Positions 332-20,174 of a DNA stretch of 64,000 nucleotides are shown in pieces. The translations under genes were made by a program, and so were the position numbers. This stretch comes from Fidelibacterota bacterium (GTDB lineage: Bacteria > Fidelibacterota > Marinisomatia > SCGC-AAA003-L08 > TS1B11), in assembly GCA_004124295.1 (NCBI GenBank), contig SCKI01000005.1:62001-126000 (forward strand), given 5' to 3'. How positions within the stretch are numbered: position 1 is the first letter of the stretch; every line of letters begins with the position of its first letter. The notes beneath the pieces were generated by a model, which was not told where the DNA came from, made no database searches, and worked only from the letters and a program-made list of their open reading frames with translations.

Positions 332-376
332 CGCTGCCGCTCCCTTTTTCTCTGACAGGATAATCGAGGACACGAT

Positions 377-871: not shown

Positions 872-896
872 GGACAGTCCGGCCGGACTGTGGCAG

Positions 897-1388: not shown

Positions 1389-2533
1389 CGGCGACCGACA
1401 GCAAATCGTCCAATTTCGGCGTGGTGGAAACCGAGGAGATGGTGCTCAACATGGGGCCCCAGCACCCCAGCACCCACGGCGTCCTGCGGCTCAAGATCCG
1501 CACCGACGGCGAAATTGTCACCCACATCGAACCGCACCTGGGCTATCTCCACCGCTGCTTCGAGAAGCATTGTGAAAACCTCTCCTACGAGCAGGTGATT
1601 CCCTTTACCGACCGCTGTGACTACCTGGCATCCATGGCCAACAACCATATCTATGCCCTGGGGGTGGAGCAGATGATGGGGCTGGAGGTGCCCGACCGGG
1701 TGGAGTACATCCGCATCATCATGGTCGAGCTCCAGCGCATCGCCAGCCACCTTATGGGGGTCGGCACGTTCGGCCTTGATGTGGGCGGCATCACCCCCTT
1801 TACCTACTGCTTCCGGGACCGGGAACGGGTCCTCGACCTGTTCGAGTACACCTGCGGCGCCCGGCTGCTGTACAACTATATATGGATCGGCGGCCTGTCC
1901 CACGATCTGCCGGAGAATTTTGTGCAGTACGCCAACGAGTTCCTGGACTACTTTGAGCCCAAGATCGACGAGTATAACCGCATCCTGACCTACAATAAAA
2001 TTTTCATCGAGCGCACCGGCGATGTGGGCGTGCTGCCGGCGGATGTGGCGATCAGTTACGGCTGCACCGGTCCCGTGCTGCGGGGCTCGGGGGTCAGCTG
2101 GGACCTGCGCAAGAATGAGCCCTATTCCATTTACGACCGCTTCGAATTTGACACGGTGCTGGGGACCGGCGAAATGGGCACCCTCGGCGACTGCTGGGAC
2201 CGCTACTTCGTGCGCATCCAGGAGATGCGCGAGAGCATAAAGATCGTGCGCCAAGCCCTGGCCCAACTGCCCGAGGGGGATGTCTTTGAGGCGCTGCCCA
2301 AGAAGGTCCGGCCGCCGGAAGGGAGCATCTACTTCCGGGGCGAAAGCCCCCGCGGCGAACTGGGCTACTTCATCGTCAGCGACGGAAAGAACGTTCCCTA
2401 CCGGGTGAAGATGCGTTCGCCGGCCTTCTGCAACCTGTCGGTGATCAACGAGATTGGCGCCGGCTGGATGATTTCCGACATCGTCACAATCCTGGGGAGC
2501 CTCGATATCGTGCTGGGTGAAATCGACCGGTGA
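1385..2533 (+). CDS. nuoD: NADH-quinone oxidoreductase subunit D, copy 1
   Basis: 49-kDa-type subunit that forms the quinone-binding cavity with NuoB. The 382-residue protein has the N-terminal PQHPSTHGVLR loop, whose His is a quinone-site residue in the family, and the C-terminal IVTILGSLDIVLGEIDR end typical of NuoD. No gaps or missing blocks. Overlaps both nuoC upstream and nuoH downstream by 4 bases (ATGA and GTGA junctions), consistent with coupled translation. Confidence 0.97.
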   Translation: MTATDSKSSNFGVVETEEMVLNMGPQHPSTHGVLRLKIRTDGEIVTHIEPHLGYLHRCFEKHCENLSYEQVIPFTDRCDYLASMANNHIYALGVEQMMGLEVPDRVEYIRIIMVELQRIASHLMGVGTFGLDVGGITPFTYCFRDRERVLDLFEYTCGARLLYNYIWIGGLSHDLPENFVQYANEFLDYFEPKIDEYNRILTYNKIFIERTGDVGVLPADVAISYGCTGPVLRGSGVSWDLRKNEPYSIYDRFEFDTVLGTGEMGTLGDCWDRYFVRIQEMRESIKIVRQALAQLPEGDVFEALPKKVRPPEGSIYFRGESPRGELGYFIVSDGKNVPYRVKMRSPAFCNLSVINEIGAGWMISDIVTILGSLDIVLGEIDR

Positions 2534-3654
2534 CCTCTTTCACCGATTCCCTCACCGGCTGGTTCAATGGCCTGACCTGGCTACCGGATATGAGCCCCGC
2601 CATTGTGGCCGTCTTTGTGGCGGGGATACTGGCCCTGGCGGTGTTCACGTTCATGAGCCTCAACGCCCTGGTAGCGGTCTACTTCGAACGCAAGGTGTCG
2701 GCCTTCATGCAGGACCGGCTGGGGCCGATGGAAGTGGGCATCTTCGGCTTCAGGGGGGGCAAGAAATTCTGGGGCGGCATCGGGCAGACCCTGGCCGACG
2801 CCATCAAGTTGCTTGGCAAGGAAGACACCATCCCGGCGGATGCGGACAGGCCGCTGTTCATCCTGGGTCCCTTCATACTGTTTGGGGCCGCCTTTACCGC
2901 CTTCATCGGTCTGCCCATCGGTTGGGGCATGGTCATTTCCGATTTCAACATCGGCGTCTTTTTTATCACCGCCATCACTTCGGTGGGGGTCATCGGCATC
3001 ATCCTTTCCGGCTGGGCCTCCAACAACAAGTGGTCGCTGTACGGGGCCATGCGCTCGGCGGCGCAGATCATCAGCTACGAGCTGCCCCTGGGCATGTCGC
3101 TGCTGCTGGTGGTGATGGTGGCCGGCAGCCTGCAGTTTTCCGATATCGTGCAGTGGCAGGAGGACAATCGCTGGTTCATCATCCACAGCCCCTTTACCGT
3201 GGTGGCCTTTATGATCTTCCTGGTTTCCGGCGTGGCCGAGGCGAACCGGACCCCTTTCGATCTGCCTGAGGCCGAGTCCGAGCTGGTGGCGGGCTACATG
3301 ACCGAGTACTCCGGCTTCCGCTGGTCGCTGTTCTTCCTGAGCGAATATGCCAGCATGGTGATCATATCGCTGATGACCGCGATCGTATTTCTGGGGGCCT
3401 GGCTGTCGCCGGTGGCCGGCATCCTGCGGATGTTCGGTGTGCCGGAGGGCTGGTACTACCTGTCGGGTCCCCTGTGGGGCCTGTTCTGGCTGATGGGGAA
3501 GGTGGCCTTTCTGATTTTCACGATGATGTGGTTCCGCTGGACGTTCCCCCGCCTGCGCCCGGACCAGCTGATGTACACCGCCTGGAAAGTTTTTTTGCCC
3601 TTCGCCCTGGCGAATATCTTCTTCGTCGGCTTGTGGGAACTGCTTTTAGCATAG
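2530..3654 (+). CDS. nuoH: NADH-quinone oxidoreductase subunit H, copy 1
   Basis: Multi-helix membrane subunit that links the quinone cavity to the proton channels. The 374-residue protein contains the family blocks ERKVSAFMQDRLGPMEVG, EANRTPFDLPEAESELVAGY and WFRWTFPRLRPDQLM. GTG start overlapping the nuoD stop as GTGA. About 30 residues longer than the second copy at 18089, mainly in the loop after GPMEVGIFGFRGGKKF and in the last periplasmic loop. It follows nuoD directly, so nuoE, nuoF and nuoG are absent from this operon. Confidence 0.96.
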   Translation: MTSFTDSLTGWFNGLTWLPDMSPAIVAVFVAGILALAVFTFMSLNALVAVYFERKVSAFMQDRLGPMEVGIFGFRGGKKFWGGIGQTLADAIKLLGKEDTIPADADRPLFILGPFILFGAAFTAFIGLPIGWGMVISDFNIGVFFITAITSVGVIGIILSGWASNNKWSLYGAMRSAAQIISYELPLGMSLLLVVMVAGSLQFSDIVQWQEDNRWFIIHSPFTVVAFMIFLVSGVAEANRTPFDLPEAESELVAGYMTEYSGFRWSLFFLSEYASMVIISLMTAIVFLGAWLSPVAGILRMFGVPEGWYYLSGPLWGLFWLMGKVAFLIFTMMWFRWTFPRLRPDQLMYTAWKVFLPFALANIFFVGLWELLLA

Positions 3655-3673
3655 GATCGGAGAGTAAGCGGAA

Positions 3674-4933
3674 ATGAGCGCATATTTCAGAAATATCGGC
3701 GTGGCAATATTATCCCTGGTGGACGGCATGCGGGTGACCCTGTGGCACTTCCGCAACAAGCGCACGCTTAACGCCACCCTGCAGTATCCCCGTGAAAAGT
3801 GGCCCATCCCGGAGCGCCACATCGGGTTCGAGGAGACCCAGTACAATGTGATCCGCTCCCGGCTGCATGTCGATATCGACGATTGCATCGGCTGTCTGCA
3901 GTGCGAGCGGGTCTGCCCGGTGGACTGTATCAAAATCGAGACCATCAAAGTGCCCAAGGAGATGGAACTGGGCACGATCCCCCACTCGACCCAGCCCAGC
4001 GCCACTTCCGGCGGAACGGCCAAGAAGCTGCTGGTGGTGCGCTTCGACATCGACATGGCCGAGTGCTGCTACTGCAACCTGTGTATCTACCCCTGCCCGG
4101 AGGAATGCATCTACATGGTGGGGGGCCCCAACGCGGACAAGCACGAGATCGATTACGAATTTTCCGTCAGCGACCGCAACGCCCTGGTGTACGAATTCGC
4201 CAGCGCCACCGATGAGGAGGTAACCGAGCTGGCCAAGGTGGTGGGCACGTCCGATCCCCGGGCCAAGCGCCGGGAACGCCGCGAGGCCGAGCTGGCCAAG
4301 GTTGCTCCCATGGCCGAGGCGGTGGATGTGGTGACCACCCCGGAGGCCGCAGCCGAAGTGGCCGCCAAGCCGAAGAAGAAGGCCATCACCGAGCCGAAGA
4401 TTGATATGACCGCCCTGGGCGAAATCGGCGACCGGGTGGCCCGGGGCCTGGCCAAGAAGGCCGCCATGGCGGCGGTGCGGGCCGGCAACGAGGCCCCCGC
4501 GGCGGCCGAGGCGGTAAAAGCAGCCCTGGAAAAGGCCGAAAAATGGGATCCGGATTACGAAGCTGCGCTGGCCAATCTGGCGGCCGCCACCATCGAGAAG
4601 CCCGGGGATGCGCCAGAAGCGGCGGCCGAGCCAGCCCCGGAGGCTGCCACCGCGGAAGCAGCGCCGGCCACGGAAGCCACTACCCCGGAAGCGGCTGATA
4701 CTGCTACGCCGGCAGCCCAAGAGGCCCCCCAGGCCAAGGCCGGGGTCGACCTGACTGTCCTCAACGGCATCCCCGACCGGGTGGCCCGGGGCAAAGCCAA
4801 GGCGATCCTGAACAAGATCACCCGCCAGGGCGGCTCCCCCAAAGAGGCCGCCGGAGAGATCCGGGCCACCTTGGAAGGGTTGGGCAAACTGGACAGCGAC
4901 ACCGAGGCCATCCTGGCCGAGCTGGAGGCCTAG
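3674..4933 (+). CDS. nuoI: NADH-quinone oxidoreductase subunit I with long C-terminal extension bearing two 62-residue repeats, copy 1
   Basis: Ferredoxin-like subunit carrying clusters N6a and N6b. Both four-cysteine motifs are intact: CIGCLQCERVCP and CYCNLCIYPCP. A normal NuoI is about 160-180 residues, as in the copy at 19139; this one is 419. After residue 200 comes an Ala/Lys/Glu-rich linker, a 62-residue domain (243-304), an Ala/Pro/Glu-rich linker, and a second 62-residue domain (358-419) that ends the protein. I count 28 of 62 positions identical between the domains, with a shared DRVARG-x-AK core. The tail is in frame, has no internal stop and keeps the repeat, so it looks selected, not a read-through error. 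Its function is unknown; I infer a docking or assembly role. Confidence 0.93.
   Translation: MSAYFRNIGVAILSLVDGMRVTLWHFRNKRTLNATLQYPREKWPIPERHIGFEETQYNVIRSRLHVDIDDCIGCLQCERVCPVDCIKIETIKVPKEMELGTIPHSTQPSATSGGTAKKLLVVRFDIDMAECCYCNLCIYPCPEECIYMVGGPNADKHEIDYEFSVSDRNALVYEFASATDEEVTELAKVVGTSDPRAKRRERREAELAKVAPMAEAVDVVTTPEAAAEVAAKPKKKAITEPKIDMTALGEIGDRVARGLAKKAAMAAVRAGNEAPAAAEAVKAALEKAEKWDPDYEAALANLAAATIEKPGDAPEAAAEPAPEAATAEAAPATEATTPEAADTATPAAQEAPQAKAGVDLTVLNGIPDRVARGKAKAILNKITRQGGSPKEAAGEIRATLEGLGKLDSDTEAILAELEA
4400..4930 (+). repeat. Pair of protein-level repeats in the NuoI tail (4400-4585 and 4745-4930)
   Basis: Two stretches of exactly 62 codons encode related domains. Shared positions include D-x-T-x-L near the start, DRVARG-x-AK, an AA pair in the middle, LE, and a D-x-D-x-EA-x-LA-x-L-x-A end. 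They are joined by a linker of about 53 residues made almost only of Ala, Pro, Glu and Thr. The second copy ends at the stop codon. I do not recognise the domain from any family. Confidence 0.85.
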
Positions 4934-4938
4934 CGACT

Positions 4939-5433
4939 TTGGCGGAGTTCGGCTTCACCGGCATCGCCGCCCTGGTTATCGCCAGCTCCTTCTGGGTGGT
5001 CACGGCCCGGAACCTGGTCCATGCGGCGGTGGCCCTGATGGGCACCCTGTTCGGCGTGGCCGGCCTGTATGTCTACCTGTATGCCGACTTTTTGGCTGCC
5101 ACCCAGGTGATAATCTACGTGGGCGGCATCCTGGTGCTGATTATTTTCGGCGTGATGCTGACCCAGCGGATCAGTTCGGCGGTGTTGCTCCAGACCCATA
5201 TGCCCAACCGGCCGCTGGCCGGCGTGGTGGTCTTTTTCCTGTTCATGGGCCTGACGTCGCTGCTGTTCCGCACCCCCTGGCACGAGGGCGAGCAGGTCAT
5301 GCCCGAGAGCACGGTGACCATCATCGGCACCTCGCTGCTGACAAAATATCTGCTGCACTTCGAGGTGGCCTCGGTGCTGCTGCTCGTCGCCCTGCTGGGC
5401 GCGGCCTATCTGTCGCGGAGAGAAGATGGATAG
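4939..5433 (+). CDS. nuoJ: NADH-quinone oxidoreductase subunit J, copy 1
   Basis: Membrane subunit of complex I. The 164-residue protein has five predicted helices and the family block ATQVIIYVGGILVLIIFGVML. The start is TTG at 4939, five bases after the nuoI stop; a GGAGG at the end of nuoI (4924-4928) can serve as ribosome binding site. Its end overlaps nuoK by 8 bases. Copy 2 is at 19669. Confidence 0.93.
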   Translation: MAEFGFTGIAALVIASSFWVVTARNLVHAAVALMGTLFGVAGLYVYLYADFLAATQVIIYVGGILVLIIFGVMLTQRISSAVLLQTHMPNRPLAGVVVFFLFMGLTSLLFRTPWHEGEQVMPESTVTIIGTSLLTKYLLHFEVASVLLLVALLGAAYLSRREDG

Positions 5434-5737
5434 CCTGCAGTCATACCTGTTTATCAGCATTGTCATGTTCTGCCTCGGGCTATACGGGGTCATGACCCGC
5501 CGCAACGGGGTGGCCATCCTGATGGGGATCGAGCTGATCCTCAATTCGGCGAACCTGAACTTTGTGGCCTTCAACCGCTTCGGGGGGCTGGGCGAGCACC
5601 TGCCGGGCCATGTGTTCGCCCTGTTCGTCATCGTCATGGCCGCATCCGAGGCGGCGGTGATGCTGGCTATCATCATTAACCTCTACAAGAACTTCCAGAC
5701 CGTCAATGTGGACGAAGCCCACGAGATGAGCGGCTAG
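5426..5737 (+). CDS. nuoK: NADH-quinone oxidoreductase subunit K, copy 1
   Basis: Three-helix membrane subunit related to MrpC. The 103-residue protein has the conserved in-membrane acidic positions in GIELILNSANLNFVAF and the AASEAAVMLAIIINLYK helix. Length is standard. It overlaps nuoJ and ends two bases before nuoL. Confidence 0.95.
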   Translation: MDSLQSYLFISIVMFCLGLYGVMTRRNGVAILMGIELILNSANLNFVAFNRFGGLGEHLPGHVFALFVIVMAASEAAVMLAIIINLYKNFQTVNVDEAHEMSG

Positions 5738-5739
5738 CC

Positions 5740-7812
5740 GTGGACATCCGCAGCACGTTCGCCCTGCTCATTCTCTTTCTGCCGCTGGCCTCCTTTGTCC
5801 TGCAGATATTTTTCGGCCGCCGGTTGGGGCCCAAGGGGGTCTGGATTTCAGTGGCGGCGCTCTTCGCCACCCTGATCCTGGCGGCCAGCATGCTGGCGAC
5901 GGTGGTCCTGGGCACCCCCATGGACCACCACCCGGAGGTGGAGTGGTTCAGTATCGGCGATTTCAGTATCACCCTCGGCTTCCAGCTCGACAACCTGGCC
6001 GTGACCATGCTGGTGATCGTGGCCCTGATCTCCTCGCTGGTGCACCTCTATTCGGTGGAATACCTGCGCGGTGATGTCCGCTACACCCGCTATTTCGGCT
6101 ACCTGGGCCTGTTCACCTTTTCGATGAACGGTATCGTGCTGGCCCACAGCCTGATCATGATGTACATGTTCTGGGAGCTGGTGGGGCTGAGCTCCTACCT
6201 GCTCATCGGCCACTGGTTCGAGAAGGACTCCGCGGCCAGCGCCGGCAAGAAGGCCTTCCTCACCAACCGGGTGGGGGACATCGGCATGTTCATCGGCATC
6301 ATGCTGTTCTGGTCGGTCACCGGCACGTTCACTTTCCACGGCCTGTATGAACTGGTGGACGTGGACGGGGCCAACCTTTTCGCCGGACAGATGGGCCTGC
6401 TGTCGCTGGCCGGAGGGCTGGTGTTTGTGGGCGCGATGGGGAAATCGGCCCAGTTCCCGCTGCATATCTGGCTGCCCGACGCCATGGAAGGCCCCACGCC
6501 GGTGTCGGCCCTGATCCATGCGGCCACGATGGTGGCTGCCGGGGTCTACCTGACGGTGCGCCTGTTCCCCATCCTGACCCCCGCCGCACTGCTGTTTGTG
6601 GCCACCATAGGCGCCATTACGGCCGTGCTGGGGGCGCTGATTGCCATCACCCAGGTTGACATCAAGCGGGTCCTGGCCTATTCCACCATCAGCCAGCTCG
6701 GCTATATGGTGATGGCGGTCGGTCTGGGCGCCCAACAGGCCGCCTTCTTCCACCTGGCCACCCACGCCATGTTCAAGGGACTGCTGTTCCTCTGCGCCGG
6801 GTCGGTGATCCATGCCCTGCATCACGCCCTTAAGCAGCGGAACGACCACGAAACGGATGCCCAGGATATGCGCAATATGGGCGGCTTGCGCTCAAAAATG
6901 CCCATCACCTGGATCACCATGGTCATCGGCGCCCTGGCCATATCGGGCGTGCCGCTGTTCTCGGGCTTCCTGAGCAAGGACGCCATCCTGGCCGGTACCC
7001 TGGCCTTTGCCGGCGAGAACTCCGCCTGGTGGGCCGTGCTGTTTCCCATCGCCGGATTCGGGGCGGCGGCCATCACCGCCTTTTACATGTTCCGGCTCAT
7101 CTTCATGACCTTTCACGGCAAACCGGCCGATGCGGCGGTCCACGCGCATGTCCATGAGTCGCCACCGGCGATGACCGGACCGCTGGTGCTGCTGGCGGCG
7201 CTCAGTTTTGCCCTGTTCTTTACCCTGCCCCAGGTCAATCCGCTGAATTCGGAGGGCTGGCTCACCGAGGCCCTGCCCCAGGTTGAAAACCTCACCGGCC
7301 ACGCCGATCTGGGGGTGGAGCACCTGGAACACGGCTGGCACGAGGCCCACGATACGGCGGTGAATCTATCCCTGACCGTGGCCGGAGGGGGCATCCTGCT
7401 GGCGGTGCTGGTCTACCTGCTCAGCCTGATCAACGCGGCTGCCATCGCCCGGCAGTTCCGGCGGGTGGGGCTGTACCAGCTATCGTTCTACAAATTTTAC
7501 TTCGATGAGATTTACGACGCCCTGATTTACCGGCCGTTCCTCTGGCTGACGGAGGTGGTGGCCTGGCTCGACTGGAACTTCTGGGACCAGTGGTTCATCG
7601 ACGGTTTGGGGCGTAATACGGTCCGGGGAGGCAATGCCTCCGGTTGGCTCGACTACGTCTGGCTCGACCAGTACCTCGTCGACGGCATCGGCCGGCTGAC
7701 CCAGCGCATCGGCGCAACCGGACGCAAACTGCAGAGCGGCAGGGTCCAGAACTACCTCATGTGGGCCCTGGCCGGAGGCATGATTGTCTTTTTCGTGGCA
7801 AGCCAGTTGTGA
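5740..7812 (+). CDS. nuoL: NADH-quinone oxidoreductase subunit L, copy 1
   Basis: Largest antiporter-like proton channel of complex I, at the far end of the membrane arm. The 690-residue protein shows the channel Glu in FWELVGLSSYLLIG and the channel Lys in MGKSAQFPLHIWLPDAM, followed by GPTPVSALIHAATMV. The C-terminal third contains the long amphipathic-helix region and a final anchor helix. GTG start. Copy 2 at 20480 is about 50 residues shorter. Confidence 0.96.
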   Translation: MDIRSTFALLILFLPLASFVLQIFFGRRLGPKGVWISVAALFATLILAASMLATVVLGTPMDHHPEVEWFSIGDFSITLGFQLDNLAVTMLVIVALISSLVHLYSVEYLRGDVRYTRYFGYLGLFTFSMNGIVLAHSLIMMYMFWELVGLSSYLLIGHWFEKDSAASAGKKAFLTNRVGDIGMFIGIMLFWSVTGTFTFHGLYELVDVDGANLFAGQMGLLSLAGGLVFVGAMGKSAQFPLHIWLPDAMEGPTPVSALIHAATMVAAGVYLTVRLFPILTPAALLFVATIGAITAVLGALIAITQVDIKRVLAYSTISQLGYMVMAVGLGAQQAAFFHLATHAMFKGLLFLCAGSVIHALHHALKQRNDHETDAQDMRNMGGLRSKMPITWITMVIGALAISGVPLFSGFLSKDAILAGTLAFAGENSAWWAVLFPIAGFGAAAITAFYMFRLIFMTFHGKPADAAVHAHVHESPPAMTGPLVLLAALSFALFFTLPQVNPLNSEGWLTEALPQVENLTGHADLGVEHLEHGWHEAHDTAVNLSLTVAGGGILLAVLVYLLSLINAAAIARQFRRVGLYQLSFYKFYFDEIYDALIYRPFLWLTEVVAWLDWNFWDQWFIDGLGRNTVRGGNASGWLDYVWLDQYLVDGIGRLTQRIGATGRKLQSGRVQNYLMWALAGGMIVFFVASQL

Positions 7813-7863
7813 TAAGCCGCTGGCCGAACATGTTGACCTGCCAGCATAGAGGAACCTGATTCT

Positions 7864-9432
7864 ATGGCATCTTCCGTACTGACCATTCTCGTTTTTCTGC
7901 CCGTAGCCGGCGCCCTGGCCATGCTCTTTTTGCCCAAGGACAAGGCCGATCTGTTCAAATGGATCGCCCTGGGGGCCACCGGGCTGCAGCTGCTGGTTGC
8001 CCTCTGGCTGCTCGGCACATTCGACCGCAGTGCCGTGGGCATGCAGTTCACCTTCATGGCCGAGTGGATACCCTCTTTCAACATCTTCTACCATGTGGGG
8101 GTGGACGGCCTCTCCATGCCGATGGTCTTATTGACGGCCCTGTTGTCGTTCCTGGCGATCCTGACCAGCTGGAACATCACCAAGGCCCCGCGGGGTTACT
8201 TCAGCCTGTTCCTGCTGCTGGACGCCGGCATGATGGGGGTTTTCGTATCGCTCGATTTTTTCCTGTTCTACATGTTCTGGGAAGTGATGCTGCTGCCCAT
8301 GTATTTCCTGATCGGCATGTGGGGCGGACCCCAGCGCCAGTACGCCGCCATCAAGTTTTTCCTGTACACCCTGTTCGGCTCGGTGCTGATGCTGCTGGCC
8401 ATGCTGGCACTCTATTTTTACACCGAACCGCACACCTTCAACCTGATCATCCTTATCGAGCAGGCCCGCCATATTGATGTGCAGTTGTGGGGTGTTGACA
8501 TGCGCTGGCTCATCTGGCTGGCCCTGTTCATCGGTTTCGCCATCAAGGTGCCCATATTCCCCTTCCACACCTGGCTCCCGCTGGCCCATGTGGAGGCGCC
8601 GACGGCCGTATCGGTGATCCTGGCCGGCGTGCTGCTGAAGATGGGCACCTACGGTCTGCTGCGGATCAGCTTTCCCCTGCTGCCGGCGGAGGCGGTCTAC
8701 TTTGCCTACATGCTGGCCCTGTTGGGGGTGATCAACATCATCTGGGGGGCGGCCAACGCCATCGCCCAGGTCGACCTGAAGCGCATGGTGGCCTATTCAT
8801 CGGTGAGCCACATGGGTATTGTGCTGCTGGGCATGTCGGCTATCGTCAGCACCAACCGGGGTGGCGCCGAAGCGGGCTTGAACGGAGCCGTGCTGCAGAT
8901 GTTCAACCACGGCATCATCACGGCCATGCTCTTTATGCTGGTGGGGGTCCTCTATGACCAGGCCCACCACCGCTTTATCGTCTATCCCAAGGATTACGAG
9001 GACGAATCGCTACGGGGCAAGCTCGGCTTCGGCGGCCTGGCCGGCCACCTGCCCATTTTTACCGCCTTTACGGCGGTGGCCTTTTTTGCCGGCCTGGGAC
9101 TGCCGGCCCTGTCCGCCTTTGTCAGCGAGCTGATGTCGTTCATCGGCGGCTTCTCCGCCTTCCGGACCCTCACCATCATCGCCACCATCGGCATACTGCT
9201 GAATGCCACCTACTTCCTGCGGGCCTTCCAGCGCATTTTCCAGGGGCCGGCGAACGAAAAGTGGGCCTCTCTGAAAGACTTGTCCGGGCGTGAGATTGCC
9301 ATGCTGACGCCGTTGCTGGTGCTGATCATAGGGCTGGGTGTTTACCCCCGGCCGGCCCTGGAAATTATTGCCGTGACTATGGGCGAGTTGATCGACCTGG
9401 TGCAGGCCGTGATACCGCTGGCGGCACGGTAA
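7864..9432 (+). CDS. nuoM: NADH-quinone oxidoreductase subunit M, copy 1
   Basis: Antiporter-like proton channel. The 522-residue protein has the channel Glu in FWEVMLLPMYFLIG, the channel Lys in FAIKVPIFPFHTWLP, and HVEAPTAVSVILAGVLLK. It starts 51 bases after nuoL. It is followed not by nuoN but by a small four-helix-bundle gene and repeats, after which nuoN resumes the operon. Confidence 0.96.
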   Translation: MASSVLTILVFLPVAGALAMLFLPKDKADLFKWIALGATGLQLLVALWLLGTFDRSAVGMQFTFMAEWIPSFNIFYHVGVDGLSMPMVLLTALLSFLAILTSWNITKAPRGYFSLFLLLDAGMMGVFVSLDFFLFYMFWEVMLLPMYFLIGMWGGPQRQYAAIKFFLYTLFGSVLMLLAMLALYFYTEPHTFNLIILIEQARHIDVQLWGVDMRWLIWLALFIGFAIKVPIFPFHTWLPLAHVEAPTAVSVILAGVLLKMGTYGLLRISFPLLPAEAVYFAYMLALLGVINIIWGAANAIAQVDLKRMVAYSSVSHMGIVLLGMSAIVSTNRGGAEAGLNGAVLQMFNHGIITAMLFMLVGVLYDQAHHRFIVYPKDYEDESLRGKLGFGGLAGHLPIFTAFTAVAFFAGLGLPALSAFVSELMSFIGGFSAFRTLTIIATIGILLNATYFLRAFQRIFQGPANEKWASLKDLSGREIAMLTPLLVLIIGLGVYPRPALEIIAVTMGELIDLVQAVIPLAAR

Positions 9433-9434
9433 CG

Positions 9435-9460
9435 GTTGGCAGTGGCAGTGGCAGTAGCAG
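9435..9460 (+). repeat. GGCAGT microrepeat, left flank of the four-helix-bundle gene
   Basis: Three GGCAGT units follow a GTT, and the run then decays to AGCAG. Its reverse complement matches the CTGCCACTGCC core of the right-flank repeats at 9903-10003. It fills most of the gap between the nuoM stop and the next ATG at 9477. Confidence 0.8.
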
Positions 9461-9476
9461 TACAGAAGGGCGCTGA

Positions 9477-9899
9477 ATGAGCGGCGGCAGCTTCAAGGAT
9501 CTAAAGGTCTACCAGCTGGCATACCGGCTGGCTACGCAGATTTTTCAGGTCACAAAATCGTTCCCGGTTGAGGAGCGCTATGCGCTGACCGGCCAGATCA
9601 GGCGGTCATCCCGGTCAGTGTGCGCCAATCTCGCCGAGGCCTATCGCAAGCGCCGCTATGAGAAGCACTTTATCGCCAAGGTCACCGATGCCGATGGTGA
9701 AGCCAGCGAGACATCGGTCTGGCTCGACTTTGCCCTGGATGAGGACTATATCACCCGTGGGCAGCACGCGGAATTTTCGGCCGGTTACCGTGAGGTTGGA
9801 AAGATGCTGGGTTCCATGCAGGCTAATCCGGAGCGGTTCTTGCCAAAAGATCGGCAAGTTTCAGAAATCGAGTTGGCCTATGAGGCCGTTGAGGACTAA
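9477..9899 (+). CDS. Four-helix-bundle protein of the S23/23S rRNA intervening-sequence (IVP) family
   Basis: The 140-residue protein matches the family pattern FKDLKVYQLAYRLA, then FPVEERYALTGQIRRSSRSV, then the NLAEAYRKRR block and a final pair of helices. Members form pentameric four-helix bundles and occur inside 23S rRNA genes or free in genomes; relatives act as accessory (Avd) proteins of diversity-generating retroelements. No reverse transcriptase or variable repeat is near, so the Avd role is not supported. The molecular function of free-standing members is unknown. It has its own ATG, is co-directional with the operon and is probably co-transcribed with it. Confidence 0.88.
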   Translation: MSGGSFKDLKVYQLAYRLATQIFQVTKSFPVEERYALTGQIRRSSRSVCANLAEAYRKRRYEKHFIAKVTDADGEASETSVWLDFALDEDYITRGQHAEFSAGYREVGKMLGSMQANPERFLPKDRQVSEIELAYEAVED

Positions 9900-9902
9900 G
9901 CC

Positions 9903-10003
9903 ATGATTATTCTCTGCCAACTGCCAGTGCCACTGCCACTTCTTCAAAAGAAGGCCGCCTGATGATTATTCTCTGCCAACTGCCAGTGCCACTGCCACTT
10001 CTT
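9903..10003 (+). repeat. Perfect 42-base direct repeat (9903-9944 and 9962-10003) upstream of nuoN
   Basis: The unit begins ATGATTATTCTCTGCCAACT and ends with CACTTCTT. Both copies are identical over 42 bases and are separated by 17 bases. The 17 bases after each copy are also related (both end AAGGC-x-x-x-CTG), so the true unit is a tandem duplication of about 59 bases abutting the nuoN start. The ATG at the head of each copy opens only a short frame. Confidence 0.95.
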
Positions 10004-10023
10004 GCTTTTAAGGCTGGCTGAGA

Positions 10024-11511
10024 ATGTCCAACTTCGACAGCCTGGCCTATTTCCTGCCCGAGCTGGCCCTCACCGTCCTCATCGTCAGCCTGGTCCTGGC
10101 GTCCGTGCTGCTCAAGTCGGACCGGGACAGGATCGTCTGGATCATCAGTCTGGCAGGGCTGGCGGTGACGGCCGTCCTGCTGGCCATCCAGCCGGCCACG
10201 GACCAGTCGATATTTATGGGCGCCCTGGCCGTGGATCCCTACAGCCGGTTCTTCAAGTGGATATTCCTGGTCGCCACCGCCGTCATTATCATCGCTTCGC
10301 CGTATACGAAGCAGCTGGACGGCTCACAGCGGCACGAATACTACCTGTTTCTGATTGCGGTGATGTTCGGCCTGTTCCTCATGGCCTCGTCCCTCGACCT
10401 GATCATCGTCTACCTGTCGATAGAAATCGTCAGTATCGGTTCCTTCATCCTGGCCGGGTTCCTGAAGGATGATCCGCGCTCCAACGAGTCGTCGCTCAAG
10501 TATGTCATCTACGGCGCCCTCTCATCCGGCGTGATGCTCTACGGCCTGAGCCTCCTGTTTGGCATGGCCGGCTCGACCAATGTATTTGAGGTGCAGGCGG
10601 CCCTCGTCGTGCTGCCCGAGAAAGCCCATCTGACCCTGGCGGTGGCCCTGCTGCTGATCCTGGTCGGTTTCGGCTACAAGATTTCCATGGTGCCGTTCCA
10701 CTTCTGGACGCCCGACGTCTACGAGGGCGCGCCCACCACCATCACCGCCTACCTGTCGGTAGCGCCCAAGGCTGCCGGGTTTGCGCTGGCCCTGCGCATA
10801 CTGGGCACCGCCTTCGGCTCCACCGGGGATCTAAACATAGGCGACTGGTCGCCGGTGCCGGGTTTGGCCTTCGGTTCCGTCATAGCCATCTTCGCCGCCC
10901 TGACAATGACCGTGGGGAACTTCCTGGCCATCCAGCAGAACAGCGTCAAGCGGCTGCTGGCCTATTCCAGCATCGCCCACGCGGGCTACATGCTGATGGC
11001 GGCGGTGATACTCAACGGCCAGGCCTTCGGGGCCATTATGTTTTACCTGGCCATCTACCTGTGCATGAATCTGGGCGCCTTTCTGGTGACCATCTTTGTC
11101 CATAACCGTTTCGGCTACGATGAGATTGACGATTGGAAAGGGTTCGGTTTTCAGGCCCCCCTCATTGCCGTGCCGATGGGTATATTCCTGTTCAGTCTCA
11201 CCGGCCTGCCGCCCACGGCCGGCTTTATCGGCAAGGTGTACCTCTTTTCGGTGCTGATAGAGGCGGGCCAGTACTGGTGGCTGGCGCTGGTCGGTATCCT
11301 CAATTCGGTGGTCTCGCTCTATTACTATGCGCGCATTATCAAGGTGATGTTTCTGGATGGCGAACCGACGGACGAAACGGTTACCGGCCATCCGGTCATG
11401 ACCGGCCTCATCCTGATGCTCACGGTACCGGTTCTGCTCTTCGGCATTTACTGGACCCCACTGATGGGCGCGGTGCAGTCTTCGCTGAAATTTTTCACCC
11501 AGGGGATGTGA
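10024..11511 (+). CDS. nuoN: NADH-quinone oxidoreductase subunit N, copy 1
   Basis: Third antiporter-like proton channel of the first complex I. The 495-residue protein contains GYKISMVPFHFWTPDVYEGAP, with the channel Lys, and the KRLLAYSSIAHAGYML helix. It is separated from nuoM by the four-helix-bundle cassette but is intact. The start is the ATG three bases after the end of the duplicated leader. It ends the first nuo operon; the next gene starts 28 bases later. Confidence 0.95.
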   Translation: MSNFDSLAYFLPELALTVLIVSLVLASVLLKSDRDRIVWIISLAGLAVTAVLLAIQPATDQSIFMGALAVDPYSRFFKWIFLVATAVIIIASPYTKQLDGSQRHEYYLFLIAVMFGLFLMASSLDLIIVYLSIEIVSIGSFILAGFLKDDPRSNESSLKYVIYGALSSGVMLYGLSLLFGMAGSTNVFEVQAALVVLPEKAHLTLAVALLLILVGFGYKISMVPFHFWTPDVYEGAPTTITAYLSVAPKAAGFALALRILGTAFGSTGDLNIGDWSPVPGLAFGSVIAIFAALTMTVGNFLAIQQNSVKRLLAYSSIAHAGYMLMAAVILNGQAFGAIMFYLAIYLCMNLGAFLVTIFVHNRFGYDEIDDWKGFGFQAPLIAVPMGIFLFSLTGLPPTAGFIGKVYLFSVLIEAGQYWWLALVGILNSVVSLYYYARIIKVMFLDGEPTDETVTGHPVMTGLILMLTVPVLLFGIYWTPLMGAVQSSLKFFTQGM

Positions 11512-12083: not shown

Positions 12084-12449
12084 ATGATCGGCGACTATCT
12101 GCCGATCCTGTTTGTCTTTCTGCTGGCGGCCGGATTCGCCCTGGGCGCCCTCGGCCTGACCCATGTGGTCGGCCCGCGCATCAAGACCCGCGTGAAGCTG
12201 TCGGCGTACGAGTCGGGCGTCGATCCGGTGGGGCCCACCCACAGCCGTCTCAATGTGCGCTACTTTCTGATCGGCCTGGTGTTCATTATTTTCGATCTGG
12301 AGGTGGTGTTCCTTTATCCCTGGGCAGTAATTTTCAGGGAGCAGGCGGCGCAGGGCCCTTTCATCTTGTACGAGATGCTGTTTTTCCTCGTGGTCCTGCT
12401 GGTGGGTTACCTCTATATCTGGCGGAAGGGGGTGTTTGAATGGGAGTAA
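12084..12449 (+). CDS. nuoA: NADH-quinone oxidoreductase subunit A, copy 2
   Basis: Complete 121-residue subunit with three helices; signature [13 protein letters not shown] followed by [22 protein letters not shown]. The frame is open upstream into the thioesterase gene, but ATG at 12084, preceded by GGGGAGCGG, gives the normal N-terminal helix and length. The usual family Cys in the YECG motif (present in copy 1) is Ser here. It overlaps nuoB by 10 bases and opens a full 14-subunit operon. Confidence 0.95.
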
Positions 12450-12946
12450 AGCAGCCCCAGTCGGCTGATTGGGTGACGACCCGGGTAGACAGCCTGGCCA
12501 ACTGGGCCCGCAAGAATTCGCTCTGGCCGATGCCGTTCGGCACCGCCTGCTGCGGTATCGAGTTCATGTCGGTGATGACCTCCCGGCACGATCTGGCCCG
12601 GTTTGGCGCCGAGGCGATCCGTTTTTCGCCCCGCCAGTCGGACCTGCTGATTGTGGCCGGCCGCATCAGCATCAAGATGATGCCGGTGCTGACCCGCATC
12701 TACGAGCAGATGCCGGAGCCCAAATGGATCATCTCCATGGGGGCCTGCGCCTCCAGCGGCGGGGTCTTTGACACCTATAGCGTGATCCAGGGTATCGACC
12801 GGTTCCTCCCGGTGGACGTCTATCTGCCCGGCTGTCCGCCCCGCCCCGAGGCGATTCTGGATGGCTTGATCAAGATTCAGCAACTCATCGAGCGGGACTC
12901 GCTCAGCCACTATCCGGCCCCGGCCGAAACCGAGCCGCTCAGCTAA
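12440..12946 (+). CDS. nuoB: NADH-quinone oxidoreductase subunit B, copy 2
   Basis: N2-cluster subunit, 168 residues. Ligand motifs are [19 protein letters not shown] and [11 protein letters not shown]. The segment [22 protein letters not shown] is of the common bacterial type, whereas copy 1 has [16 protein letters not shown]. The two complexes therefore carry clearly distinct NuoB proteins. Confidence 0.97.
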
Positions 12947-12950
12947 GCCC

Positions 12951-13493
12951 ATGCTGCAGGCCGACCTGATACCGACCGTGATGCAGGACCGTTACCAGAA
13001 CGATTTCCTGGGCATTACCGATTTCCGGGGCATGGTGACCATCAATATCCGCGGCGCCATCGTTCTGGATGTGCTGCGGATGATGAAGACCGATCCCCGC
13101 TTTGCCTGCAATTTTCTGGCCGACCTGACGGCCGTGGACCATCTGTTAAAGGGTGGCCATGCCCGGTATTCGGTGGTCTACCACCTGCTGAACCAGTACG
13201 ACGCGCTGCGCATCGTGGTGCAGGCCTGGGTGGATGAGGAGGCGCCGAGCCTCGCTTCGGTTGCGGCCCTCTGGCGCACCGCCGATTGGCAGGAGCGCGA
13301 AGTTTACGATCTGTTCGGCATCGAATTCGAGGGCCACCCCGATCTGCGCCGCATTCTCAATCCCGACGATTATAAGGGCCACCCCCTGCGCAAGGACTAT
13401 CCTCTGCAAGGCCGGGGCGAGCGCGATGACTTCCCGGTGGTGGAGCGCAGCATCGGCAGCAAATGGCCCACTGGACAGGCCGGCTTTGAATAA
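12951..13493 (+). CDS. nuoC: NADH-quinone oxidoreductase subunit C, copy 2
   Basis: Peripheral-arm subunit of 180 residues with [21 protein letters not shown] and [20 protein letters not shown]. Separate gene, not fused to nuoD. Its N-terminal 90 residues differ strongly from copy 1. Confidence 0.95.
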
Positions 13494-13523
13494 CTTTCCG
13501 CAGCCCCTCAGCCTGGCAGCCGC

Positions 13524-14723
13524 ATGACCCTGGAAGCCCAGCCCCTCATCACCGAGCCGCTGATACTCAATTTCGGGCCGTCGCACCCGGCCACCCACGG
13601 CACCCTGCGGGTGATCATGGAGCTCGACGGTGAACTGGTCACCAAGGTGACAGCGGAGATCGGCTACCTGCACTCCGGCTTCGAGAAACTCGGCGAGCAT
13701 CTGGATTACAACCAGTACATCACCATCACGGACCGGATGAACTATATGTCGCCCATGTGCAACAATGTTGCTTTTGCCCTCGCGGCTGAGCAGCTGCTGG
13801 ACCTGGAGGTGCCCCTCCGGGCGCAATACCTGCGGGTGCTGATGTGCGAATTCTCACGCATCGCCGACCACCTGCTGTGTGTTGGCATGCAGGCCGTTGA
13901 CGTTGGCGCCTTTACCGTCTTCTTGTATGGCTTCCGCATGCGGGAGCAGATTTACGACCTGTTTGAACTGGTCTGCGGCTCCCGGCTCACCACCAGCTAT
14001 ACCCGGGTGGGCGGGCTGATGCGTGACCTGCCCGATGGCGCCATACCGCTGGCGGCCTACCTCATTGAGGAAATCCCCAACACGCTGCGGGAGATCGACG
14101 GACTGCTCAGCCACAACCGCATCTGGCTCGACCGGACCCGGGGCATATCGCCCATCAGTCCCGAGCAGGCCATCAGCTATGGCCTTAGCGGCCCCCTGGC
14201 CCGGGCCTGCGGTGTCGACTACGATATCCGGGTCAAGGAGCCCTACTCGGCCTACGGCGACTTCGACTTTGACGTGATCATCGGCAAGGACGGGGACGTT
14301 TACGACCGCTACATCGTGCGCCTCCACGAGATGTGGGAAAGTTTGAAAATCTGCCGGCAAGTGCTGGAAAAGCTGCCTGGCGGCCCGGTGAATGTGGACA
14401 CCGATTCCAAGGCCATCCTGCCCCCGCCGGACGAGGTGTTCAACTCCATCGAAGGGCTGATCTATCATTTTGAACTGACCATGGAGAACCGCGGCTTTGA
14501 GCCCCCCGTCGGCGACAGCTACGTGCCCACCGAATCGCCCAACGGCGAACTGGGCTTCTATATCGTCAGCGACGGCGGCCGCGAGCCGTACCGGATCCGG
14601 ACCCGGCCACCTTCGCTGATGAACTATTCGATATTCGAGGAACTGGTGCCGGGGCTGATGGTGTCGGATGTGGTGGCGGTGCTCGGCAGCATGAACATCA
14701 TTGCCGGGGAGCTGGACCGGTGA
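13524..14723 (+). CDS. nuoD: NADH-quinone oxidoreductase subunit D, copy 2
   Basis: Quinone-site subunit, 399 residues, with PSHPATHGTLR near the N-terminus and the VVAVLGSMNIIAGELDR end. The conserved interior is complete. It ends in a 4-base GTGA overlap with nuoE, typical of coupled translation in this operon. Confidence 0.97.
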   Translation: MTLEAQPLITEPLILNFGPSHPATHGTLRVIMELDGELVTKVTAEIGYLHSGFEKLGEHLDYNQYITITDRMNYMSPMCNNVAFALAAEQLLDLEVPLRAQYLRVLMCEFSRIADHLLCVGMQAVDVGAFTVFLYGFRMREQIYDLFELVCGSRLTTSYTRVGGLMRDLPDGAIPLAAYLIEEIPNTLREIDGLLSHNRIWLDRTRGISPISPEQAISYGLSGPLARACGVDYDIRVKEPYSAYGDFDFDVIIGKDGDVYDRYIVRLHEMWESLKICRQVLEKLPGGPVNVDTDSKAILPPPDEVFNSIEGLIYHFELTMENRGFEPPVGDSYVPTESPNGELGFYIVSDGGREPYRIRTRPPSLMNYSIFEELVPGLMVSDVVAVLGSMNIIAGELDR

Positions 14724-15193
14724 GCTTCGCCTTTGATGCCCCCCGCACCAAGCGCTTCAAGGCCCTCGTGCGCCAATATCCCGACAGGCGCTCGCTGGCC
14801 CTGCCCCTGCTGCACATGGCCCAGGATCAGGAGGGCCACATCTCCCGGGATGTGCTGCTGGCCTTGGCGGAAATGCTGAAGATCTCCCCGGCCGAACTCT
14901 TCGATACGGTATCGTTCTACAGCATGTTCAACCTCGAGCCGAAAGGGAAATACCTGCTGCAGGTCTGCCAGACCCTCTCCTGCAGTCTGGCCGGGGCCGA
15001 CCTGGTGGTGGATCACATCGGGGCGAAGTTCAAGCTCAAGCCGGGCGAAACCACGGCGGACGGCCGGTTCACCCTGCTGAAGGTGGAATGTCTCGGCTCC
15101 TGCGGGACGGCCCCGGTGGTGCAGATCAACGACGATTACTACGAAAAAATGACCGTGGACAAGGTCGGCCGGGTACTGGAAAAGCTGTCGTGA
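14720..15193 (+). CDS. nuoE: NADH-quinone oxidoreductase subunit E
   Basis: 24-kDa-type subunit that carries the N1a 2Fe-2S cluster next to NuoF in the NADH module. The 157-residue thioredoxin-like protein has the four ligands in CQTLSC and ECLGSCG. GTG start overlapping the nuoD stop. Together with nuoF and nuoG it makes this complex an NADH oxidase; the first operon lacks all three. Confidence 0.95.
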   Translation: MSFAFDAPRTKRFKALVRQYPDRRSLALPLLHMAQDQEGHISRDVLLALAEMLKISPAELFDTVSFYSMFNLEPKGKYLLQVCQTLSCSLAGADLVVDHIGAKFKLKPGETTADGRFTLLKVECLGSCGTAPVVQINDDYYEKMTVDKVGRVLEKLS

Positions 15194-16491
15194 AGCGTTA
15201 CCAGCCCATCCTGACCAAGTACCTTGACGAACCGGGCTCGGCCACCATCGATTTTTACCTGGTGCATGAGGGTTACAGGGCTGCCCGGAAGGCGATCCTG
15301 GAGATGGACGCCGGGGAGATCATCGAGGAAGTCAAGGCGTCCGGGCTGCAGGGCCGGGGAGGGGCCGGTTTCCCGGCCGGCGTAAAGTGGGACTTCATTC
15401 CCAAGAACTCGAAGAAACCGACCTACCTGATCAACAACGCCGATGAAAGCGAGCCGGGCACTTTCAAGGACCGCCTGCTGATGAACCACAATCCCCACCA
15501 GATGCTGGAGGGGATGATTATTGCCAGCAAGGCCATTGGCTGCCACCTGGCCTTCATCTATATCCGGGGCGAATTCGTAAAGGAAGCCCGGCTGCTGGAG
15601 ACGGCCATCGCGGAGTGCCGGGCCAACAACATTCTGGGCAAGGGCATCTTCGGCAGCGACTACAATCTGGAGATCGTCGTCCATCGCGGGGCCGGGGCCT
15701 ACATCTGCGGCGAGGAGACCGGCCTGATCGAATCGCTGGAGGGCAAGCGGGGCTGGCCGCGCATCAAGCCCCCCTTCCCGGCCATCGAGGGCTATCTCAA
15801 GTCCCCGACGGTGGTGAACAATGTCGAGACCCTCTGCAACCTGCCCCATATCCTGAACGAAGGGGCCGCTTGGTTCCGCAAGATCGGCGCCAGCAAGGAG
15901 AGTCCCGGTCCCAAGCTGTACTGCCTCAGCGGCGGAGTGCAGAAACCGGGCGTCTATGAGGCCCCCCTGGGTACCCTGCTGGAGACCCTGATCTACGACT
16001 TCGCCGGCGGCATCGCGGACGGCCGGGAGCTGAAGGCGGTGATCCCCGGCGGCAGCTCGGCGCCCCTGCTGAAGGCCGACGAGATCGAGGGGCTGAAGAT
16101 GGACTTCCCCTCGGTGAAGGCCGCCGGGAGCATGCTCGGCTCGGCCGGAATCATCGTGCTGGACGATACGGTGGACATGGTGCAGGCCTGCTATAATCTG
16201 GCCCGTTTCTATGCCCATGAATCGTGCGGCCAGTGCACCCCCTGCCGGGAGGGGACCACCTGGCTCACCAAGATATTGGCCCGCTTCACCGCCGGCCAGG
16301 GACGGCTCGAGGACCTCGACCTGATCCTGGAAGTGACCGACAACATCGGCGGCCTGATCGACTTCTCGCAGGGCAGCTTCGGCAAGACCATCTGTCCCTT
16401 CGGCGAGGCGGTGGCCTGGCCGGTGCGGGCCTTCGTGGAAAAATTCCGGGCCGAGTTCGAGGCCTATCTGCCCCGGGAGGCGCTGGCCTGA
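15190..16491 (+). CDS. nuoF: NADH-quinone oxidoreductase subunit F
   Basis: NADH- and FMN-binding subunit with cluster N3. Residue blocks: GRGGAGFPAGVKW (FMN/NADH loop), YICGEETGLIESLEG, and the 4Fe-4S ligands C346, C349, C352 (SCGQCTPCREG) and C402 (TICPFGEA). I chose GTG at 15190, which overlaps the nuoE stop as GTGA and gives 433 residues; the frame remains open further upstream, but that part has no resemblance to NuoF. Confidence 0.95.
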   Translation: MKRYQPILTKYLDEPGSATIDFYLVHEGYRAARKAILEMDAGEIIEEVKASGLQGRGGAGFPAGVKWDFIPKNSKKPTYLINNADESEPGTFKDRLLMNHNPHQMLEGMIIASKAIGCHLAFIYIRGEFVKEARLLETAIAECRANNILGKGIFGSDYNLEIVVHRGAGAYICGEETGLIESLEGKRGWPRIKPPFPAIEGYLKSPTVVNNVETLCNLPHILNEGAAWFRKIGASKESPGPKLYCLSGGVQKPGVYEAPLGTLLETLIYDFAGGIADGRELKAVIPGGSSAPLLKADEIEGLKMDFPSVKAAGSMLGSAGIIVLDDTVDMVQACYNLARFYAHESCGQCTPCREGTTWLTKILARFTAGQGRLEDLDLILEVTDNIGGLIDFSQGSFGKTICPFGEAVAWPVRAFVEKFRAEFEAYLPREALA

Positions 16492-18092
16492 TGCCCCTGC
16501 TCAAGATAGATCATCAGGAACTGGAGGTGGCGGCCGGCAGCCAGGTGCTGGAGGCGGCCCTGGCGGCCGGGATCGAGATTCCCCACTATTGCTACCACCC
16601 CGCCCTGTCGGTGGTGGGGAGCTGCCGCATGTGCATTGTGGAAGTGGAAGGGATGCCCAAGCTGCAAACCGCCTGCTCGACCCCCATCGGCGAGCTGCCG
16701 GCGGACCGGAAGGTGGACGGCAAGTACGATATGGTGGTGCACACCGAGTCGGAGAAAGTGGTGGCGGCGCGCAAGCTGATGCTGGAATTCCTGCTGCTGA
16801 ACCACCCCCTCGACTGCCCGGTCTGCGACCAGGCCGGCGAGTGCTTTCTGCAGGACTATTCCTTCAAGTACGGCAGCGCCCACAGCCGCTTCATCGAGGA
16901 GAAGCGGGTCCGGCCGGCGGAGGATTTGGGCAGTGGCGTGGCCATCAACCATGACCGCTGCATCATGTGCACCCGCTGCGTCCGCTTCACCCGGGAGATT
17001 ACCGGTACCGACGAACTTTTTGTAATGGACCGGGGCTATTCCAATAGAATCGCCGTTTTCGACGGCCTGCCCCTGGACAATCCCCTGGCCGGCAACGTGG
17101 CCGACATCTGCCCGGTGGGGGCCCTGCTGCTGAAGGACTACATGCACACGACCCGGGTCTGGCACCTGTCCCACACCGAATCGGTCTGCAACGAGTGCGC
17201 CAGCGGCTGCAGCATCACCGTGGATGCCCGGGATAACAAGATATACCGTATCATCAGCCGGGAAAATCCCCAGGCCAACGGCTACTTTATCTGCGATTAC
17301 GGCCGCTACAGTTTCCACAAATATGCCGACAGCCCGCTGACCAGGCCCCTCCAGCGGACCAAGGACGGCTGGGAGATGATCGACTGGGACACGGCCTATC
17401 GCCAGGTGCTGGAGCAGGTGCAGGCGACCGGCGGTAAAGGGGCGGTGCGGGCCCTGGCCTCACCCACTTTCCCCAACGAACCGAACTTTGTGCTGGGGCA
17501 GTTCATGGCCCGGCTCAGCGACCGCAAGAACATCGCCCTGTTGCCCACGCTGAAAGAGGACGACCAGGAGTTCCCCGGCGGCTTCCGCATCAGCGGCGAA
17601 AAGGGGGGCAACCTGCGGGGCGTACAGGCGATGGTACCGGGGCTGGCCGCAGCCATGAAATCGCTCATGCGGGGGGAGCCGGGCGTGCTCATCGCCCTGG
17701 ACGGGGACGGCCGGGCGCACCTTACGGGAGAGCTGAAACGGCTGCTGGAGCTGGTGGCCTTCAAGGTGGTGGTGGCCAGCATGCCTTCGGATCTCACCGC
17801 CCAGGCCGACCTCGTGCTGCCGGTGGCCACCCCTTACGCCCGGGAAGGGACCATGACCAACGACAAGGGACTCGTGCAGTGGCTGCAGCCGGCCCTGCAT
17901 CCGGCCGGCGAGGTGCGCCCCGACTGGCAGGTGATCGCCGAACTGGGCCAGCTGCTCACCGGCGAAGGGCACCTGTACACCTGTGCCGGAGACGTGACCT
18001 GGAAAATCAACCAGACCACGCCCGGCTACAGCCAGATCACCCGCTTCCGCCTGGGCCGGACCGGGCAACTGAGCGGCAGCGAGGCGGCATGA
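16491..18092 (+). CDS. nuoG: NADH-quinone oxidoreductase subunit G, short form
   Basis: Iron-sulfur subunit that passes electrons from NuoF towards NuoI. N-terminal 2Fe-2S ligands lie in GSCRMCIVEVEG and TACSTP; then the His-Cys cluster region NHPLDCPVCDQAGEC, the CIMCTRCVRF plus ADICPVG cluster, and a further CNECASGC motif at the start of the molybdopterin-like domain. At 533 residues it is far shorter than the roughly 900 of Escherichia coli because most of the molybdopterin-like domain is missing. ATG at 16491 overlaps the nuoF stop (TGATG). Confidence 0.93.
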   Translation: MPLLKIDHQELEVAAGSQVLEAALAAGIEIPHYCYHPALSVVGSCRMCIVEVEGMPKLQTACSTPIGELPADRKVDGKYDMVVHTESEKVVAARKLMLEFLLLNHPLDCPVCDQAGECFLQDYSFKYGSAHSRFIEEKRVRPAEDLGSGVAINHDRCIMCTRCVRFTREITGTDELFVMDRGYSNRIAVFDGLPLDNPLAGNVADICPVGALLLKDYMHTTRVWHLSHTESVCNECASGCSITVDARDNKIYRIISRENPQANGYFICDYGRYSFHKYADSPLTRPLQRTKDGWEMIDWDTAYRQVLEQVQATGGKGAVRALASPTFPNEPNFVLGQFMARLSDRKNIALLPTLKEDDQEFPGGFRISGEKGGNLRGVQAMVPGLAAAMKSLMRGEPGVLIALDGDGRAHLTGELKRLLELVAFKVVVASMPSDLTAQADLVLPVATPYAREGTMTNDKGLVQWLQPALHPAGEVRPDWQVIAELGQLLTGEGHLYTCAGDVTWKINQTTPGYSQITRFRLGRTGQLSGSEAA

Positions 18093-19117: not shown

Positions 19118-19138
19118 GCGCGCCCTGAGAGCAGTCTG

Positions 19139-20172: not shown

Positions 20173-20174
20173 GC

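Follow-up and report, generated by a model that had tools for sequence, protein, structure and literature searches.

Inverted arrays of clade-specific core words bound IVP/S23 four-helix-bundle genes in Candidatus Neomarinimicrobiota

The window, the whole stretch of 64,000 nucleotides analyzed here (Fidelibacterota bacterium, contig SCKI01000005.1, positions 62,001 to 126,000), carries a gene of the 23S rRNA intervening-sequence protein family (IVP, or S23) between two genes that we take from their translations to be nuoM and nuoN (Table 1). An IVP-family gene at this place had been proposed in a first-pass annotation made from the letters alone, and the open reading frame positions and profile matches bear this out. 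The 140-residue protein matches PF05635 (23S_rRNA_IVP) at 1.2e-31 and 109.5 bits (cut-off 33.8) and TIGR02436, the NCBIfam 'four helix bundle protein' (97.5 bits, cut-off 24); it also matches bAvd with 48.9 bits (cut-off 40) and scores 41.8 bits against the DGR Avd profile NF033474, which is under the cut-off of 80. Its domain matches are PF05635 and PF22296 only, with no nuclease, transposase or Y1/HUH domain. We note that the window has two presumably nuo-type gene sets in succession, at 2–11511 and about 12086–20480, a naming that again comes from the translations.

Table 1. Features at the IVP locus (positions in the window).
Feature	Position	Strand	Basis or content
nuoM (presumed), left neighbor	7864–9432	+	ORF list
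Left array, GGCAGT/AGCAGT units, CAGT cores in gene sense	9437–9461	+	Repeat comparison and core analysis; sequence TGGCAGTGGCAGTGGCAGTAGCAGT
IVP/S23/four-helix-bundle gene, 140 aa	9477–9899	+	ORF list and profile matches
First 59-nt right-end copy	9903–9961	+	Inverted array 9920–9940, CAGT cores on minus strand
Second 59-nt right-end copy	9962–10020	+	Inverted array 9979–9999
nuoN (presumed), right neighbor	10024–11511	+	ORF list

Opposite-sense repeats of the GGCAGT type had been reported on the two flanks, and this too is confirmed: the left array is 90–95% complementary to the right arrays over 19–21 nt, and both right-end copies contain the inverted word ACTGCCAGTGCCACTGCCACT. The right array is present twice because a 59-nt stretch is duplicated in tandem; the two copies are 86% identical and stop 3 nt before nuoN. 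The repeats themselves are arranged in tandem, and the spacers between them vary. A profile search identifies five PF05635 genes in this genome, and inspection by eye shows each of them flanked left and right by inverted arrays of short period. The array words of the five genes all differ (GGCAGT, GATCAGC, GAGTCC, AATTGTT, and one of an AAGT/AAAAGT type).

The layout is common in the window's class, Candidatus Neomarinimicrobiota, for which 171 genomes were searched. PF05635 is present in 58 of these, with a maximum of 26 copies per genome. A profile built from 94 fetched loci gave 98 gene matches in 96 loci, with the nuoM-nuoN loci L037 and L043 among them. Seven matches were then removed, namely L037 and L043 as duplicates, two second genes that were weak or cut, and three matches with short flanks, leaving 91 IVP genes that are mostly the top-scoring matches of the class, not all of them. 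Arms were scored, under the stricter scoring, by aligning the 250 nt upstream of each gene to the reverse-complemented 350 nt downstream of it; the controls were 329 genes taken from the window and 20 further stretches, after removal of two IVP entries. An arm score of at least 16 is reached by 48 of the 91 IVP genes and by none of the controls, and a score of at least 13 by 79 of 91 and 8 of 329, respectively. The window's gene scores 16.8, and since no control gets to 16 its arms are better than chance. The left arms are biased between strands, with G exceeding C in 60 of 65 and C exceeding G in three. Array-bounded genes are not peculiar to IVP, because the GxxExxY genes of the same class, which belong to the PDDEXK_3 nuclease family, share the layout: inverted short arrays of the CACAAAG type score at least 13 in 22 of 30 loci (L211–L240) and at least 16 in 12 of 30, with nearly all of the latter being of one word type, ACCACAAAGACACAAAG.

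The arms are built in a simple way. Using the criterion of an exact 5-mer present at least five times over both arms at steps of 6–9 nt, a core is found for 40 of 91 IVP genes and for 3 of 329 controls. With one mismatch allowed, four copies per arm is the commonest number in these 40 (17 left and 16 right arms), followed by five (10 left and 8 right), and the steps between cores are 6 nt (33), 7 nt (177), 8 nt (75) or 9 nt (16). One example is the array at L106, GTGTTaac-GTGTTtgc-GTGTTcaa-GTGTTagg-GTGTTcac, in which the spacers are free. The flanks are arrays of about four or five copies of a 4–5-nt core separated by free spacers of 2–3 nt. The first-pass annotation had seen clear candidate boundaries at the window locus; arrays do bound the gene on both sides, but they are core-word arrays and not a fixed inverted repeat.

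The core word follows the clade of the protein. In a tree of 91 IVP domains with their arms, clades have one word in common across genomes, including GGCAGT, TTAATTG, AGAGC, GTTAGAC, GTGTT, GTTCCTGA, GGTGAG, and others. We compared protein identity with word similarity for 79 IVPs with an arm score of at least 13, using 2920 pairs from different genomes with non-homologous outer flanks, and obtained a Mantel r of 0.289 against a permutation maximum of 0.107 (n = 2000). Mean word similarity is 0.47 for pairs with more than 60% protein identity and 0.09–0.14 for pairs below 40%, and it is 0.08 for same-genome paralogue pairs below 30% identity (n = 54). A nearest-neighbor count is weaker, placing the word in the top five ranks for 39 of 75. 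Overall, the match between protein clade and core word at unrelated sites is well supported, and it provides a direct test of which nucleic acid each protein binds. The alignment columns that separate seven of the clades were listed as candidate specificity-determining residues, and none is claimed because about 41 sequences cannot separate such a signal from ordinary clade divergence.

The CAGT core of the GGCAGT word recurs in other phyla. An alignment of five GGCAGT-clade proteins was used as the query, and the best 80 of 510 relatives in named genomes are mostly from Bacteroidota, with others from Chlorobiaceae, Ignavibacteriales, Lentisphaerae, Nitrotoga, Desulfobacteraceae, WOR-3 and Fermentibacteria. 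Three of the 80 loci are elements used earlier and were left out. The GGCAGT type was fixed in advance and the CAGT core was chosen after inspecting these loci; with that choice, 48 of 77 loci have three or more CAGT copies in the expected orientation on each flank, compared to 3, 0 and 3 loci for the reverse complement, reverse and complement control words, and 262 of 269 steps between CAGT starts are 6 or 7 nt. Counting one locus per site cluster (n = 25), the corresponding numbers are 13 for CAGT and 1, 0 and 1 for the control words, so that about half of the clusters retain CAGT; 23 of 25 have an arm score of at least 13. The remaining clusters have drifted to related or different words, one example being GACAGAGGACGGA. 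A single linked site cluster, mostly of Flavobacteriaceae, holds 30 of the 80 loci, and some IVP copies are old residents; vertical inheritance applies to many copies. A search of phage records with the protein gave no match, and 33 plasmid records match it, mostly from Nostoc and other cyanobacteria. Among 12 plasmid loci that were fetched, nine are seen by eye to be flanked left and right by inverted arrays, mostly GAGCAGGGG; of the other three, one is partial, one is without a right array, and one (L327) has direct rather than inverted arrays. A tyrosine recombinase or integrase gene adjoins several of the plasmid loci (L322, L323, L325, L331 and L332).

The window's site is occupied in only some relatives. 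Of 60 genomes searched, 18, among them the window's own, yielded the nuoM-nuoN junction, and the gene is present in three of them (the window's genome G000, G001 of the same genus, and G006) and absent from 15. The two relatives' proteins at the junction are 79% and 64% identical to the window protein, and in all three genomes with the gene at the junction the left array is of the GGCAGT type and the right array of the ACTGC type. An old resident carried by all relatives at this place without repeats, the case set against the small-element idea in the first-pass annotation, is therefore not what the junctions contain. Within the taxonomic family, three of nine genomes with the site have the gene; among the six empty sites a short left-sense solo array is present in four (G005, G002, G008 and G004) and none in two. 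G008 and G004 have the same NuoM, and in a NuoM tree this pair groups with G006 with a support of 0.98. A history of one gain and several losses and a history of two gains both fit.

The complementarity of the arms raises the question of whether they are kept for pairing in the transcript. In this explanation the locus is an RNA-level cassette, with RNase III cutting the stem and the insertion being harmless in the operon. The RNA of the window element folds better than shuffled sequences (z −2.4; 1 of 100 shuffles as good), with the left arm predicted to pair with the first right copy, and known intervening sequences with complementary ends are cut by RNase III (PMC4990558). However, RNA pairing is expected to leave an excess of G-U mismatches on the sense strand, and there is none in either of two counts of G-U against mirror-image mismatches (68 and 79 in the class set; 82 and 73 in the second). 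Moreover, in seven class clades an arm matches its own partner with a mean score of 15.5–18.0 and arms from other elements in its clade about equally well (13.1–17.3), compared to 9.0–9.9 for other clades. Because the G-U bias is lacking and same-clade arms match about equally, the arms resemble protein-recognition arrays and not a pairing stem, and by both of these measures the stem is unsupported as a selected feature in the Marinimicrobia set. The spacers are also free, the cores are kept where pairing is poor (14 of 20 poorly pairing out-of-sample loci have CAGT at least twice on both sides, compared to 1 for the control), and a word that tracks protein clade is not predicted by pairing alone. 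In the Bacteroidota-rich set, the own arm has a median of 15.4 compared to 10.0 for other loci of the clade, and this advantage makes some pairing or within-element copying possible; the RNA stem is retained as a rival for this reason, and we consider it unlikely.

Arrays of one word also occur without a gene, as is evident when the window's genome and its relatives are searched for the same repeats, and they are concentrated in few genomes. Matches to the GGCAGT 19-mer (overlaps counted) number 33 in G000, 61 in G001 and 95 in G006, and 29, 29 and 16 in G004, G005 and G008, members of the family in which the gene was not found; the remaining genomes of the 171 have 0–3. The GGCAGT-clade genomes of other families (G146, G094, G020, G059 and G090) have 0–1 array matches. 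Of 19 GGCAGT sites in the window's genome, 11 are outside crude ORF calls, one of these being the window's own left arm. The AGAGC clade is present in exactly three of the 171 genomes, two of which have about 46 and 21 solo matches and the third only those in its own arms; a similar AGAGCCA array is found in two genomes from which the clade is absent, G065 (29 matches) and G064 (10). On contig C27 of G064 (6845–7278) an IVP gene has an AGAGCCA array ~110 nt downstream, and other AGAGCCA arrays are present in that genome. At least five solo GTGTT matches are found in 6 of 9 genomes with the GTGTT clade and 19 of 162 without it (Fisher 0.0003), or 6 of 9 and 18 of 49 when only genomes with any IVP are counted (Fisher 0.096; rank test 0.0009), where the nine genomes include pseudogene-like and partial copies, and own-arm matches were removed manually from the counts where they were listed, but could not be in every case. 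These links are indications only, because related genomes are not independent. Among the matches listed there are no near-identical young copies at different sites in one genome, and most of the different-site matches listed end in the gene or within about 60 nt, which fits boundaries at the arrays.

The protein offers a plausible reader for such arrays. Its PDB relatives include 2gsc and 2rld, with five chains listed for each, and the Xanthomonas protein is a toroidal homopentamer, as cited in a Coxiella paper that describes the function of S23/IVP proteins as not known (PMC4990558). We propose that the element spans 9437–10020 and would consist of the IVP gene between two inverted arrays with the core CAGT within GGCAGT. 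The core-bearing strand is rich in G, with its 3′ end pointing into the element on both sides. As a ring of five four-helix bundles, the form of its solved relatives, the protein would most probably wrap this single strand with about one core per subunit, in the manner of TRAP. The protein would recognize both ends of the element, and perhaps its own mRNA leader too, and the bound protein could mark the element so that an enzyme acting in trans copies or inserts it. The flexible spacing points to a single strand and away from a rigid duplex, and the inverted layout suggests that two element ends are recognized and not a leader only. The protein quite likely reads the word of its clade, and the unit probably is, or was, mobile. 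As a whole, the proposal of a compact element with an IVP gene, inverted arrays of its own recognition site and a ring protein is the one that we favor on balance, with full ring-wrapping as its working hypothesis. The earlier suggestion that the flanks are the ends of a small element is in part borne out, and broadened, by the class-wide arms, the recurrence of a clade's word at non-homologous sites and the other-phyla set; its mobility, like binding, single-strandedness and the one-core-per-subunit count, is something we infer from these patterns.

The arrays may instead be regulatory, with IVP acting as a TRAP-like repressor on its own leader and on other intergenic repeats, and the gene not being mobile. 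The last left core in the CAGT set starts a median of 45 nt before the matched domain, solo arrays are scattered, 11 of the 19 GGCAGT sites in the window's genome are outside crude ORF calls, and TAACTGA heptamers that closely precede start codons have been ascribed a post-transcriptional regulator in a proposal by MacGregor (2015, PMC4679880). We regard this explanation as improbable, since it leaves unexplained the inverted right array behind the gene, the coming and going of the gene at one site, and the recurrence of clade and word at unrelated sites and on cyanobacterial plasmids. It is more doubtful still that the arrays spread as repeats in their own right or form an insertion hot spot, with IVP genes as passengers landing in or beside them: GGCAGT solo arrays do far exceed genes in number, four of the six empty family sites have a solo left-type array and the GxxExxY/PDDEXK_3 genes are also array-bounded, but if the genes were passengers, a matching word for each protein clade would not be expected, nor would the recurrence of one clade's word in other phyla, and inverted arms are frequent around IVP genes but seldom seen around control genes.

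The proposed element, in which a ring protein reads the arrays at both ends, has partial parallels in known systems. RAYT genes encode HUH transposases and are flanked by inverted copies of a repeat, the short REP palindrome, with solo copies scattered in the same genome and each repeat family tied to a protein family. The IVP elements share the gene between inverted repeats and the tie between repeat and protein families, and the solo arrays of some genomes may be a counterpart of the solo REPs; however, IVP has neither a known nuclease nor a Y1/HUH match, and its repeats consist of cores and spacers in tandem. TRAP, whose ring has 11 subunits and a different fold, regulates trp genes and wraps single-stranded RNA at (G/U)AG repeats; the likeness is in a ring oligomer, short cores, free 2–3-nt spacers and about one core per subunit, the differences are in subunit number, fold and trp regulation, and for IVP the binding itself is only putative. 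Unlike in a classical transposon, the ends of the window element are variable arrays and there is no transposase domain. The intervening sequences of 23S rRNA have the same protein family, a gene between complementary ends and a sporadic occurrence, and have long been suspected to be mobile (PMC4990558), whereas the window copy lies between protein genes and not inside a 23S or 16S rRNA gene, and is bounded by clade-specific arrays whose spacers are free and in which selection for pairing has left no clear sign.

The Avd and bAvd proteins of DGRs are related four-helix bundles, although the window protein passes the cut-off for bAvd alone and IVP genes occur without need of a reverse transcriptase. 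The idea, taken from Avd, of a reverse transcriptase as an obligate partner was rejected. RVT_1 is present in 13 of the 58 genomes with an IVP gene and in 1 of the 113 without, a comparison confounded by genome richness, and it is dispensable because the IVP-rich genomes G049 (26 IVPs), G090, G061 and G106 have none. The sole RVT_1 match in the window's genome is not on the window's contig, C8, but at 65607–66107 of contig C9, ~280 nt from a solo GGCAGT array at 66384–66402 (within L019). A GxxExxY nuclease as an obligate partner was rejected likewise, with no GxxExxY match in the window's genome. Any movement of the elements would proceed without a recognizable transposase.

TAACTGA heptamer arrays of Beggiatoaceae, Cyanobacteria and Bacteroidetes are intergenic and patchy, with no evident mechanism of transfer (MacGregor 2015, PMC4679880), and IVP is a candidate reader for such short intergenic repeat arrays reported without a mechanism. 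Read on the other strand, TCAGTTA, the TAACTGA repeats are CAGT cores with 3-nt spacers. Work in 1990 reportedly dealt with the STRR heptamers of cyanobacteria. A term search of PMC4679880 gives no mention of S23, intervening or four-helix proteins, and we found no report that ties IVP/S23 genes to flanking repeat arrays in the open PubMed Central literature, a scope with most subscription journals outside it. As a speculative generalization, which we hold only tentatively, IVP/S23 proteins may be ring-shaped, sequence-specific single-strand binders in which each subunit takes up one 4–5-nt core particular to the clade; with inverted arrays of that core they would form a widespread class of transposase-less mobile elements, the ribosomal intervening sequences being a specialized case, and they may be the cognate readers of orphan heptamer arrays such as TAACTGA in cyanobacteria, Beggiatoaceae and Bacteroidetes.

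Clusters of solo arrays can join several words in one stretch, for example GTTAGTT, GGCAGT, ATCCAAT and GTCCTTA, and such mixed clusters are present at L001, L003, L005 and L008, around 1400–1620. We also note a palindrome-like short stretch of the type CCCTTCGGC...GCTCAGGG that recurs beside arrays in the window's genome, at L008, L009, L013 and L019, around 1400–1620.
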